This document shows positions 1,466 through 6,820 of a stretch of 36,640 bases of DNA, piece after piece. A model generated the notes under the pieces. The model made no database searches. It was not told where the DNA came from and worked only from the letters and a program-made list of their open reading frames with translations. The DNA is from Christensenellaceae bacterium. GTDB taxonomy: Bacteria > Bacillota > Clostridia > Christensenellales > Aristaeellaceae. Each line of letters opens with the position of its first letter. The stretch's first letter is position 1. A program made the position numbers and the translations under genes. The stretch spans positions 1-36,640 of the forward strand of contig JAAZPT010000191.1 in assembly GCA_012797085.1 (NCBI GenBank). Reading direction: 5' to 3'.

Positions 1466-2890
1466 ATGGTAAAGCTGTTTAAAAATTTGTTAAAAACATA
1501 TTCCATATTGTTATTTATAGCAATTGTTGCAGGTATATTTGTGTCGGCTTTTAAACTCAAGGCTAATATTGCTTTATATATTGCTGCAACCCTTTTTATT
1601 TTAATTATGCTTGGTATTTCAAAGCTTATAAAAAACAATATCAGCTTAATAATAGTAAGTCTTTTTGCTTTGCTTGTAATGCTTTATATTATTTTCACAA
1701 TAAAGAATGTACAAATATCGGATTTTGAGCTTTTTTATAATGCTGGCTTGGATATTAAATATGGCAGACGGGATTATTTAGCTTTTGACAAGTTCTTTTT
1801 TTGGCCCTTTCAAGTGGGTTATTCAAGTTATATAGCTTTGCTTTTAAACATTTGGGAAAACGAAATGATTATTAAATTATCCAATGTTTTTTGGGCTATG
1901 TTTGCAAGCTTCAGTATTTACGGACTAACTTTAGAAACAACTAAAAACTTTAAAATGGCCAATTTGGCTTTTGTAATACATTTGTTTTTTCCGGCACGTT
2001 TAGTAATGCTGCCGGTTATAACAAATCAGTTTTTGGCCAGTGCTTTAATATACTTTGCCTTATATCTTTGGTTAAAATTAGATACTAACAATTTTTTAAA
2101 TATATTGCTTATAGCCTTTATATTAGCCCTCGCAAATGCAGCAAGGAGCATAGCCATTGTTAGCTTAGGGGCAATATGCCTTTTCGGTTTATTGAATGCT
2201 ATCAAGCTTAAAAGCTACAATCAGGAAATTTCAAAAATCCTAAAACTATGCTTGTGTTATGTTATTATTTTTACTTGTATATCATCAAGTTTTGCATGGA
2301 CGGGTTTAAGTCCTAGGGGCTTAAAAAATGATGCCCTGCTTTGGAAGTTTGCCACAGGTACAAACTACGAATACAATGGAGCATATAACCCTGCTTTATA
2401 CCAAAAAATATATGGCGATGAAGGAATGACGGAAGAGGAAAGAGAGTACCTAACAAAACAAGCCATAAAGGATAACTTATCTCAAACTGATAAAATGCTT
2501 GTTTTGCCCTATAAAAAAATAGAGAGCCATTTTTTAGGTGTGCAACCAACGGAGTATACATTTAATAACATAAAAAACAATACAATAAACCTGTTCGGTA
2601 AAAATTATAATACTTCGCAATTAATTGCAAACTATGTTTTGTTTGAAAGAATATTTTTCTTTATAATTTTAATTTTTACAATGATAACTTTAGTTAGTTT
2701 TAATAAATGCATTACCGATAAAATGTGGATATTTATAATAGTTTTTGCAGAATATACATTTATACATTTAATAATTGAAATGCAATCAAGGTATATGTTT
2801 TTCCTGTTCGGTTTTATGGCAGTGTTTGCAGCTGTGTTTATTATAAATTTGGAGAGTACTTTAAAAACCAAATTAAAAAGGATGCAATAA
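1466..2890 (+). CDS. Polytopic membrane protein, GT-C / ArnT-like glycosyltransferase family
   Basis: About 10 hydrophobic segments; first-loop acidic motif ISDFELFYNAG; TATAAT at 1435-1440 upstream. Confidence 0.6.
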   Translation: MVKLFKNLLKTYSILLFIAIVAGIFVSAFKLKANIALYIAATLFILIMLGISKLIKNNISLIIVSLFALLVMLYIIFTIKNVQISDFELFYNAGLDIKYGRRDYLAFDKFFFWPFQVGYSSYIALLLNIWENEMIIKLSNVFWAMFASFSIYGLTLETTKNFKMANLAFVIHLFFPARLVMLPVITNQFLASALIYFALYLWLKLDTNNFLNILLIAFILALANAARSIAIVSLGAICLFGLLNAIKLKSYNQEISKILKLCLCYVIIFTCISSSFAWTGLSPRGLKNDALLWKFATGTNYEYNGAYNPALYQKIYGDEGMTEEEREYLTKQAIKDNLSQTDKMLVLPYKKIESHFLGVQPTEYTFNNIKNNTINLFGKNYNTSQLIANYVLFERIFFFIILIFTMITLVSFNKCITDKMWIFIIVFAEYTFIHLIIEMQSRYMFFLFGFMAVFAAVFIINLESTLKTKLKRMQ

Positions 2891-2901
2891 GCATCCTTTT
2901 T
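2875..2901. terminator. Bidirectional terminator between convergent genes
   Basis: AAAAAGGATGC-AATAA-GCATCCTTTTT; overlaps the 3' ends of both convergent ORFs. Confidence 0.85.
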
Positions 2902-4133
2902 TAATATCTGTTGTCAAATATTCTTGTTGATTTCTTTTCGCTTCTTGGCAGTTCGCCTATACCAACAATTTTTACTATTACACTTATGCCGATTTTGTTT
3001 TTAAATCCTTGGTTAATTTCCCTTTCAAGGCTTGTAATATCTACATCTTTTTTAGCCTCAACAAATAGGGTACAAATATCCTTGCCATAAAGGTGATCAA
3101 GCATAAACTGGTACTCGCTGGAAGCGTCCGGTATCTGTGATATCATTTCGTCAATTTGGCTTGGGAATATATTTACACCCTTTACCTTAACCATATCATC
3201 AGTTCTGCCAAGTATTGTATCTATTAAGGGATAATTCAGGCCGCAACTACAAGGTTTTGCAATTTTTCTTGTTAAGTCGTGGGTTCTATAACGTATTAAG
3301 GGAGCCCCTTCCTTTGCAAGCGTAGTTATTACCAGCTCGCCTGTTTCGCCATCGGGCAGCACTTCACCGGTTTTAGGGTTAATTATTTCTATGTAAATAT
3401 AGTCGGTCCACATATGTATGCCCTCTTGTTTAGCACAACTTACACCAATACCCGGGCCATATACTTCAGTTAGGCCATAAATATCGTATAGCTCAACACC
3501 AAGCTCATTTGCTATACGTTTTCTCATTTTTTCGCCCCAACGTTCACTGCCTATAAGCCCTTTTGTTAGCTTAAGCTCATCGCGTATACCGCGTTTTTCA
3601 ATTTCTTCGGCTAATAATAATGCATAGGATGATGTGGCACAAAGCACCGTTGAGCCTAAGTCTTTCATCATTTTTAATTGCTTATCCGTGTTGCCCGGGC
3701 CCATAGGTATTGCCATGGCACCAAGCTTCTCCGCTCCGGCTTGAAAACCTATTCCTGCAGTCCATAAGCCGTAGCCGGGTGTTATATGTATCCTATCCTT
3801 GCTTGTTACACCTATAACTTCATAACAGCGGGCAAACATTTCAGCCCAGTCATCAACATCTTTTTGAGTATAGGGTATTATTACCGGTGTGCCTGTTGTG
3901 CCGGATGAAGAGTGTATTCTTACAATCTTATCCTCATCCACTGCTTGTAAGCCTAAGGGATAGGCATTCCTTAAATCCGCCTTTTCTGTAAAGGGTAATG
4001 CTAAAAAGTCTTCAAAGCTTTCAAGCTTTTCAACATCCTTAAACTTTTGAGAGTAAAAACCATTACCGGCTTTAAGCTTATAAAATTGTTCTTGAATTAT
4101 TTTAAATTGATTATCTTCCATATTATTGTCCAA
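2901..4133 (-). CDS. Phenylacetate/arylacetate-CoA ligase (PaaK family)
   Basis: IHSSSGTTGTPVIIPYT AMP-binding motif, YDIYGLTEVYGPG, RYRTHDLT, GRTDDMVKVKGVNIFPSQI. Confidence 0.93.
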   Translation of the reverse strand: MDNNMEDNQFKIIQEQFYKLKAGNGFYSQKFKDVEKLESFEDFLALPFTEKADLRNAYPLGLQAVDEDKIVRIHSSSGTTGTPVIIPYTQKDVDDWAEMFARCYEVIGVTSKDRIHITPGYGLWTAGIGFQAGAEKLGAMAIPMGPGNTDKQLKMMKDLGSTVLCATSSYALLLAEEIEKRGIRDELKLTKGLIGSERWGEKMRKRIANELGVELYDIYGLTEVYGPGIGVSCAKQEGIHMWTDYIYIEIINPKTGEVLPDGETGELVITTLAKEGAPLIRYRTHDLTRKIAKPCSCGLNYPLIDTILGRTDDMVKVKGVNIFPSQIDEMISQIPDASSEYQFMLDHLYGKDICTLFVEAKKDVDITSLEREINQGFKNKIGISVIVKIVGIGELPRSEKKSTRIFDNRY

Positions 4134-4138
4134 CTTTC

Positions 4139-4711
4139 TTAATTGTTTATAACCATATCAATGGCTTTAATATTTAAATCTACAAACTTTGGTTTTACGA
4201 TGTTTTTTACAGCATTTTTTAAGCTGTCAACACTATAATTTATTAATTTATATTTTATGGCATAGGCCACCAATGCAACATTTCTAATTTTGCTGTTATT
4301 AAGTTCCTTTGCAATTTTGTCCGTATTAACACTAATAATTTTAAAACCTTTGTTATCTAAATAATTAAAATAGTCCTTAAAAAGCATATCCTTTGTATTA
4401 TCAAGGCTGAAGGGTTTAATTATTTTTTCATTTATTAAAAACTTTGTATTTTCATTGCAATAGGGTAAGGTCCTTATGGCTTCTATCACTTCAAAGGCTA
4501 TTACTAAATCTGCTTTACCCTTTGGCATAAGAGGGCTGCATACACCTTTATTTATGCGTATATGGCTTACAACGCTTCCGCCTTTTTGTGCCATGCCTAT
4601 TGTTTCAGCGGTGTCAATGTCATCACCATTTAACATGGCCATTTGGGCAATAAGTTTACTTGCTAAAACTGTGCCTTGCCCACCAACGCCTACACATAGT
4701 ATATTCATCAC
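4139..4711 (-). CDS. iorB: Indolepyruvate:ferredoxin oxidoreductase, beta subunit
   Basis: ILCVGVGGQGTVLASKLIAQ, typical 2-oxoacid oxidoreductase gamma-type domain; adjacent to iorA. Confidence 0.9.
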   Translation of the reverse strand: MMNILCVGVGGQGTVLASKLIAQMAMLNGDDIDTAETIGMAQKGGSVVSHIRINKGVCSPLMPKGKADLVIAFEVIEAIRTLPYCNENTKFLINEKIIKPFSLDNTKDMLFKDYFNYLDNKGFKIISVNTDKIAKELNNSKIRNVALVAYAIKYKLINYSVDSLKNAVKNIVKPKFVDLNIKAIDMVINN

Positions 4712-6490
4712 TTACACCTCCCTTTGATTTATGGCTTTTACAGGGCAAAGACCCTTACACAAACCACAACCGTTACACATATCCTCATCAATTACAACTT
4801 TATCGTTTTTAAAAGCTATGGCAGGGCAACCTATTTCCCTTATACATTTGTTACATTTTATACACTTCTCGTTAATATAATAAGGAGCTTTTGCCTTACT
4901 TAGAAAAACACAGGGAGCTTTAAAAATTATTGCTTTAACCCCTTGTTTCGCAGAAATTTCCTTTACGGCTTCAATGGCTTTATCCTGCTCAAATGGGCTT
5001 AAAGTAATAACTTCATCCAAGCCTACAGCTTCTAAAACCTTAGGTATAGATATTGCTTTTGCTACATCACCGCTCAATGTAAAGGGTATTCCCGGGTGGG
5101 GTTGATTGCCTGTCATTGCTGTGGTTGAATTATCAAGCACTATTATTGTAATATTAGCCTTGTTATAAACTGCATTTACAATACCTGTTAATCCGGAAGC
5201 AAAAAATGTAGAGTCACCTATAAAGGAAAAACATATTGCACTCTCGTCAACTTTGTTTATACCTTGGGCAAGGGTAATATCTGCACCCATGCAAAGGCAG
5301 GTATCAACCATGTTTAATGGCATGGCATTACCCAATGTATAGCAACCTATATCCCCGTTAAATATGGCATTTTTACCCTTCATTGCCTGTTTTACGGCAT
5401 AGAAGCTTGCCCTATGGGGGCAACCGCTACATAGGCTTGGTGGACGAACCGGCAAGGGTATATCTATACTCAAACCGTTACTTGTTTCAGCTATATTAAG
5501 GAATTTTGCAATGTTTTCCGGAGTGTTTTCTCCGGCTAAGCTGTTTGTTTTGTCAAGCTTACCGTGTATTTTTACATTTAAATTATATTTGCCGGCAATT
5601 ATTAATAATTCTCGCTCAATATAAGGATCCAGCTCTTCAAAAATAAAAACCTCGCTTACATTGCTTAAAAATTCAATGGCCAACTTTTCAGGAAAGGGGT
5701 AAGGTGTGCCTATTTTTAATAAATTATAAGCGTTGCTGCCGTTGAGTGCTTCATTTACATAGGCATAACTTATACCGTTTGTGGCGATGCCGATTTTTTG
5801 ATTATTATTTATATGTTTATTAAAGGAACTTTTGCTAAACTCATCACTTAAGCTAAAGCGAAGTTCTTCCAAAGCGATATGGTTTAAGTAGGATGCTTTT
5901 GGGAATATCACCCAACGGGCAGTATCCTTAACAAAAGTACCTTTTTTGATTGTATTGTTATAATCAAATACATCAAAGCTTTTATAAGCATGGCAAACCC
6001 TTGTTGTAGGGCGCAATATTACGGGCCTTTTTATTTTTTCTGATAACTCAAAGGCAAATATTGTCATATGGTATGCTTCTTCAGGGCTTGAGGGATCAAG
6101 TACGGGAAGCTTGCTATAGGCTCCAAATGTGCGAGTATCCTGCTCTGTTTGTGAAGATATGGGGCCGGGGTCATCGGCAACAACTATGCACATGCCACCT
6201 TCTACTCCTACATAGGCAAGGCTCATCAGCGGATCACTTGCAACATTTAACCCAACCTGCTTCATTGTTACAATTGTTCTTGCACCGCAATAAGAGGCAC
6301 CGGCTGCAATTTCCAGGGCTGCCTTTTCGTTTGTACTCCACTCCACATACAAACCATTAGGTTTGTTATTAGCTATTGCCTCCATAATCTCGGTTGATGG
6401 AGTACCGGGATAACCGCTTGCCAAGGCTATGCCGGAATGTATGGCGGCTAAGGCTATGGCTTCGTTGCCAAGTAAAAATCTTTTTTCCAT
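4712..6490 (-). CDS. iorA: Indolepyruvate:ferredoxin oxidoreductase, alpha subunit
   Basis: LLGNEAIALAAIHSGIALASGYPGTPSTEIME, PPSLCSGCPHRASFYAVK, NGDIGCYTLG, two C-terminal 4Fe-4S motifs (CIKCNKCIREIGCP, CNGCGLCKGLCP). Confidence 0.95.
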   Translation of the reverse strand: MEKRFLLGNEAIALAAIHSGIALASGYPGTPSTEIMEAIANNKPNGLYVEWSTNEKAALEIAAGASYCGARTIVTMKQVGLNVASDPLMSLAYVGVEGGMCIVVADDPGPISSQTEQDTRTFGAYSKLPVLDPSSPEEAYHMTIFAFELSEKIKRPVILRPTTRVCHAYKSFDVFDYNNTIKKGTFVKDTARWVIFPKASYLNHIALEELRFSLSDEFSKSSFNKHINNNQKIGIATNGISYAYVNEALNGSNAYNLLKIGTPYPFPEKLAIEFLSNVSEVFIFEELDPYIERELLIIAGKYNLNVKIHGKLDKTNSLAGENTPENIAKFLNIAETSNGLSIDIPLPVRPPSLCSGCPHRASFYAVKQAMKGKNAIFNGDIGCYTLGNAMPLNMVDTCLCMGADITLAQGINKVDESAICFSFIGDSTFFASGLTGIVNAVYNKANITIIVLDNSTTAMTGNQPHPGIPFTLSGDVAKAISIPKVLEAVGLDEVITLSPFEQDKAIEAVKEISAKQGVKAIIFKAPCVFLSKAKAPYYINEKCIKCNKCIREIGCPAIAFKNDKVVIDEDMCNGCGLCKGLCPVKAINQREV

Positions 6491-6499
6491 TAATTCACA

Positions 6500-6745
6500 T
6501 CCTTTTTAAAATAAAAAAACACCCATCAACATAGGACAGTGTTGCTGCGGTGCCACCTAAATTCATTATAAATAATGCTCTTTATCGTATACTACATATA
6601 CGTTTGCTGTATCGGGCAAACCCGTTCATTATAGAATACCTCATAGGCCCATTCAATGCTTTAAAGCCGCTTTCTTGCATCAACCGAAAGCTTTCTAAAG
6701 GTTTTTTAGCATTTACTATTTCTAATCATCGGCTATATTTATAGG
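6500..6745 (-). promoter_or_regulatory. T-box riboswitch leader upstream of iorA-iorB-paaK; specifier reads UGG (Trp)
   Basis: Reverse complement has T-box sequence TTAGGTGGCACCGCAGC (6560-6544), AGTA motif (6717-6714), AAUGCU/AGCAUU stem I helix, GAA-UGG-G specifier context (UGG at 6651-6649), then a short stem and T7 (ending near 6511). Confidence 0.92.
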
Positions 6746-6748
6746 GTA

Positions 6749-6777
6749 ATATTAACACAAAAACCAAACTCAATCAA
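6749..6777 (-). promoter_or_regulatory. Sigma-A type promoter for the T-box / ior operon
   Basis: Reverse complement TTGATT-17 nt-TAATAT immediately upstream of stem I. Confidence 0.65.
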
Positions 6778-6790
6778 ACAAAAAAATAAA

Positions 6791-6820
6791 AAAAGCCTTG
6801 TTTTAAACAAGGCTTTTTTT
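6791..6820. terminator. Terminator downstream of ftsH (symmetric)
   Basis: AAAAGCCTTGTTTTAAACAAGGCTTTTTTT. Confidence 0.85.

Follow-up and report, generated by a model that had tools for sequence, protein, structure and literature searches.

A predicted tryptophan T-box upstream of an indolepyruvate oxidoreductase and arylacetate-CoA ligase operon in a Christensenellaceae bacterium and its probable role in tryptophan salvage

T-boxes turn genes on when the cognate amino acid is scarce. The indolepyruvate oxidoreductase IorAB, by contrast, is usually regarded, in archaea, as an enzyme of peptide fermentation, and in genomes from the gut and the rumen it is routinely annotated under aromatic amino acid catabolism. 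Several described systems come close to a combination of the two. The trpX gene of S. suis, which is preceded by a Trp T-box, is induced at low tryptophan (PMC9382623). In Bacteroides, an indolepyruvate oxidoreductase (IOR) adjoining an arylacetate-CoA ligase has been proposed to be biosynthetic; AMP-forming ligases favour acyl-CoA synthesis, and IORs take several arylpyruvates (PMC13285125). An aryl-acid route using IOR is attributed to M. maripaludis in work cited in PMC4162585. Here we describe a locus in a 36,640-nucleotide stretch of DNA from a Christensenellaceae bacterium (hereafter, the window) in which, as we consider very probable on the evidence below, a tryptophan-specific T-box switches on an iorA-iorB-paaK operon for the salvage of indoleacetate into tryptophan.

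The leader RNA and the operon

The window contains a single Rfam match along its entire length (cmscan), to the T-box family RF00230. The match scores 113.4 bits (E 1.5e-24), well above the gathering cut-off of 93 bits, and covers the model in full (model positions 1-219). The leader occupies the minus strand of the ftsH-iorA interval, 5' of the operon, from which its end is separated by 38 nt; the span delineated in the initial annotation (6490-6780) thus comprises the leader together with flanking sequence (Table 1). The elements from which a T-box had originally been recognized, namely, the AGUA motif, the AAUGCU/AGCAUU helix, the GAA-UGG-G context and the UGGC bulge, are all present, and the covariance-model scan proposed at that time corroborates their assignment. 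In stem I, AAUGCU (6713-6708) pairs with AGCAUU (6660-6655). The T-box sequence proper, AGGUGGCACCGCAG, includes UGGC, and the antiterminator folds canonically, with UAGG and GCAG pairing with CUGUCCUA and a 7-nt bulge in between. The proposed folding of stem I yielded a mixed outcome: the helix and the specifier could be read, but stem I folded alone was no better than shuffled sequences (z -0.17). For a T-box, however, the covariance model, rather than the folding of stem I against shuffles, is the relevant test.

Table 1. Features of the T-box leader and the downstream operon (positions within the window)
Feature	Positions	Strand	Basis
Strong bidirectional terminator, parts ftsH from the T-box transcript	6788-6820	.	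-16.7 kcal/mol, z -5.1
T-box leader RNA, stem I to antiterminator	6529-6738	-	Rfam RF00230
AGUA motif, specifier loop, stem I	6714-6717	-	Sequence, Rfam alignment
Specifier codon UGG (Trp) in GAA-UGG-G	6649-6651	-	Sequence; aligned with same-genome T-boxes
T-box bulge UGGC, its C predicted to pair with G73 of tRNA-Trp	6552-6555	-	Sequence; tRNA-Trp of relatives
Antiterminator helix, UAGG/CCUA and GCAG/CUGU	6532-6559	-	RNA fold
Weak putative terminator hairpin, competing with the antiterminator, and U7 run	6513-6543	-	Sequence; fold -4.1 kcal/mol
iorA, indolepyruvate:ferredoxin oxidoreductase alpha subunit	4712-6490	-	TIGR03336; Pfam TPP, POR_N, Fer4; alignment
iorB, beta subunit, IorB-like POR	4139-4711	-	PF01558; best NCBIfam NF005325
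PaaK-like AMP-forming arylacetate-CoA ligase	2901-4133	-	TIGR02155; PF00501, PF14535

The hairpin predicted in front of the U7 run was not recovered by a simple terminator scan, and a promoter scan revealed no strong -35/-10 elements upstream of the leader. The weakness of this hairpin would fit a decayed or chance T-box-like sequence devoid of function. Nevertheless, the match scores 113 bits, both the specifier and the antiterminator are intact, and over 20 further genomes share the arrangement. We therefore regard such an explanation as highly improbable and treat the leader as a genuine T-box.

Of the three genes originally assigned to the operon, IorA is confirmed at the level of an equivalog (727 bits against TIGR03336, cut-off 651), whereas the IorB-like and PaaK-like proteins are recognized by domain matches, below the equivalog cut-offs. 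IorB contains PF01558 but scores 167 bits against NF005325 (cut-off 230) and 139 bits against TIGR03334 (cut-off 206). The ligase scores 389 bits against TIGR02155 (cut-off 646) and is a homologue of PaaK that belongs to a separate subfamily; among solved structures, the phenylacetate-CoA ligases 4r1l and 2y27 are closest to it. The protein contains AMP-binding domains, from which activation of an arylacetate is predicted.

Amino acid specificity of the leader

Nine T-boxes of the window's genome, with the downstream genes named from their sequences, provided internal controls. Their specifiers and variable bases include GUU/U for valS, AUC/U for ileS, UUC/U for pheS, UCC/C for serS, ACC/A for thrS and UAC/U for an aminotransferase gene. 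The signature of the iorA leader, UGG/C, recurs in the T-box of a TrpX-type importer (NF041285, 250 bits, below the cut-off of 390) in the same genome. The UGG of the iorA leader occupies the same model positions as that of the trpX-type leader and as the UAC and UUC specifiers of other T-boxes of this genome.

Given that the specifier register relative to GAA varies by one base (+1 in valS, -1 in ileS), the AUG and GGG frames also have to be weighed. The GGG (Gly) frame was rejected, the glycyl-tRNA synthetase T-boxes of relatives having A as the variable base. The AUG (Met) frame was rejected on the variable base, because C mismatches A73, which is found in both Met tRNAs of the window's genome. 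The tRNA-Trp gene was not found in this genome, which is 80% complete, but those of ten relatives all carry G73, matching the combination of UGG and C.

The methionine reading can be formulated more fully: AUG would be the specifier (-1 frame), and the operon would serve to make methionine from 3-methylthiopropionate via the CoA ester. Consistent with it, AUG occurs in the specifier loops of the T-boxes of the clade (see below), and the variable base is U in 14 of the 29 leaders, a base expected to pair with A73 of tRNA-Met. However, the remaining 15, that of the window among them, have C, a mismatch to A73. Furthermore, metS T-boxes from three relatives show a different context, GAAC-AUG-G, with variable base U, whereas UGG/U is found upstream of trpS and a TrpP-like gene in relatives, and UGG/C upstream of trpX and of trpB2, the latter preceded by a UGG T-box of its own in two relatives. 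Production of methionine can hardly be the function of the operon. The mixture of C and U is normal for Trp T-boxes, 46% of which have U as the variable base despite G73 in the tRNA (TBDB; PMC7778990). Taken together, the specifier, the variable base, the same-genome controls, the discriminator bases of the tRNAs and the other 28 T-boxes of the clade bear out the specificity first suggested for this leader: among AUG, UGG and GGG, only UGG fits the variable C, which supports its prediction as a Trp-specific T-box.

Recurrence of the arrangement and parallel leaders

The IorA relatives from the same order fall into two clades, with 53-57% and about 40-45% identity to the window's IorA, respectively, and the gene order iorA-iorB-paaK is kept in the first of these. 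When 85,000 species genomes were searched with the PaaK alignment, 80 further loci came to light, in Clostridia, Eggerthellaceae, Treponema, Thermoplasmata archaea and other taxa. Carriers that have been cultured include Parasporobacterium paucivorans DSM 15970 (L260) and Desulfosporosinus acididurans (L235). By pattern scans, T-boxes were tied to the IorAB/PaaK clade of the window at 29 of 95 loci, and none was detected by this approach at the other 66. All 29 carry UGG in the specifier loop. Eighteen are located directly 5' of iorA and four directly 5' of paaK, five precede the TrpP-like gene of the cluster, one precedes a methyltransferase-like gene, and one is divergent. In the phylogeny of 93 IorA sequences, every Trp T-box belongs to one clade and both Tyr T-boxes to its sister clade (SH-aLRT 100 for each branch). 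T-boxes are scattered across the Trp clade, so that either these leaders are frequently gained or lost, or divergent ones were missed by the scan.

Some of the loci show peculiarities. At one of them (L047, genome G006, 2596-3020), a terminator-like segment, GGGCAGACTTTT, occurs twice, on either side of approximately 300 nt that separate the T-box from iorA, as though an element had been inserted here. At another (L053, G060), IorA contains a long insert and an in-frame TAG, there is no adjoining paaK, and the genome encodes indoleglycerol-phosphate synthase (IGPS, trpC). In addition, a T-box whose specifier context is GAG-UGG-G and whose variable base is U precedes genes for a small protein and an aldo/keto reductase-like protein (L177, G070).

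Genes related to tryptophan are found in the vicinity of the operon. Five Trp T-box clusters encode TrpP-like transporters (PF17099 above the cut-off in both proteins tested), TrpX-like substrate-binding proteins are encoded directly behind paaK in G006, and trpB2 follows the iorA-iorB-paaK operon at locus L286. Parallel arrangements exist for tyrosine and phenylalanine. In two genomes, G003 and G038, the genes for an AMP-forming ligase and for IorAB of the sister clade are preceded by Tyr T-boxes (UAC). The operon in G003 (L058) encodes, in this order, an AMP-forming CoA ligase, IorA, IorB and an aminotransferase, which together would cover every predicted step from hydroxyphenylacetate to tyrosine. 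Canonical PaaK is found under Phe T-boxes (UUC) in G021 (L131) and G006 (L149), and G021 carries all three kinds of leader.

Aminotransferase genes also are found under Tyr T-boxes (UAC) in three genomes (L118, L137 and, in the window's genome, L002); the L002 enzyme is a candidate for the last step. Furthermore, T-boxes reading Leu (CUG or CUC, variable base U) are located directly 5' of single class I acyl-CoA ligases at L287, L288, L289, L290 and L291 (G064, G028, G043, G042 and G008, respectively), although the leader in G043 has variable base A and may read differently. These leaders may indicate a Leu-controlled salvage of branched-chain acids.

The initial annotation had also raised the question of whether the genome can synthesize tryptophan de novo, and the answer is mixed. 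The genes were sought family by family, and neither IGPS nor chorismate synthase was found in the window's genome, where absences are weak evidence because the assembly is 80% complete. IGPS also is missing from 13 of the 14 order relatives carrying the window's IorA clade. However, among genomes with the T-box and the operon, IGPS is present in 9 of 28, compared to 48 of 118 sampled across the class. These counts do not demonstrate that the operon and de novo synthesis exclude each other and are uninformative as proof. Given that about a third of the T-box genomes keep IGPS, the operon is better viewed as a salvage route that is not always a replacement and that in many hosts exists alongside de novo synthesis.

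Direction of the pathway and comparison with known systems

Under the proposed mechanism, a shortage of tryptophan would cause uncharged tRNA-Trp to base-pair both with the UGG of stem I and with the UGGC of the antiterminator, switching on iorA-iorB-paaK. The PaaK-like ligase would then use ATP to convert indole-3-acetate to indoleacetyl-CoA, which IorAB, with reduced ferredoxin and CO2, would reductively carboxylate to indolepyruvate, and an aminotransferase encoded elsewhere would yield tryptophan. The T-box with its UGG/C signature, the operon and the recurrence of both are seen in the sequences themselves; the response to tRNA-Trp, indoleacetate as the substrate and the direction of the enzymes are what we infer from the genes and their leader. 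Alternatively, the T-box could be specific for tryptophan but recruited for Trp-derived compounds, with IorAB and PaaK acting oxidatively or as a general aryl-acid enzyme system. Such a role would agree with the customary view of IorAB as a fermentation enzyme of archaea and with the acceptance of several arylpyruvates by IORs. However, T-boxes act at scarcity, when degradation of tryptophan makes no sense; the ligase is of the AMP-forming type; and the same T-boxes are found on Trp importers in shared clusters, with paralogous Tyr and Phe versions elsewhere. We therefore consider this alternative unlikely. The recurrence of the Trp T-box across the clade, along with the Trp importers and the Tyr and Phe parallels, lends good support to the reductive reading, as does the failure to find IGPS in the window's genome. 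Thus, IorAB and the AMP-forming ligase most likely run reductively, from indoleacetate via indolepyruvate to tryptophan, in line with the anabolic direction put forward initially.

More broadly, we lean towards the view that Bacillota anaerobes use amino acid-specific T-boxes to turn activated acids, as needed, into amino acids by reductive carboxylation: Trp via the first IorAB clade and PaaK, Tyr via a ligase, the second IorAB clade and an aminotransferase, Phe via PaaK and, perhaps, Leu via class I acyl-CoA ligases under CUG/CUC T-boxes. If so, enzymes annotated as fermentative would be biosynthetic scavengers of the waste acids of other microbes. Already for tryptophan, the pairing of the T-box with IorAB recurs in many gut and rumen bacteria, where enzymes annotated for breakdown most likely make tryptophan. 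The T-box would provide a sequence-level readout of both the direction and the amino acid specificity of IorAB, which can part biosynthetic from fermentative enzymes, could change predictions of auxotrophy and points to cross-feeding on indoleacetate, hydroxyphenylacetate and phenylacetate.

The kinds of parts involved are already known; what appears to be new is their combination, a Trp T-box on a predicted reductive indoleacetate-to-Trp operon. In the literature searched, no paper joined a T-box with indolepyruvate and Wels 2008 does not mention such a pairing, although an earlier notice is possible in Vitreschak 2008 or Gutierrez-Preciado 2009. The leader shares the UGG in stem I, the UGGC T-box and the antiterminator with the trpX T-box of S. 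suis (PMC9382623), which, however, serves genes for Trp biosynthesis or uptake, whereas that of the window precedes genes for an indolepyruvate oxidoreductase and an arylacetate-CoA ligase and has a weak terminator. With the aryl-acid pathway of Methanococcus maripaludis, as cited in PMC4162585, the locus shares IOR and the conversion of aryl acids to aromatic amino acids; that pathway is archaeal and is not known to involve a T-box, whereas the window represents Bacillota, with an AMP-forming PaaK-like ligase and predicted control by tRNA. A further counterpart, the Bacteroides IOR (PMC13285125), likewise stands beside an AMP-forming arylacetate-CoA ligase and has been proposed to have a biosynthetic role; no T-box was reported there, and its regulation does not disclose an amino acid specificity, unlike in the window, where the leader points to tryptophan.
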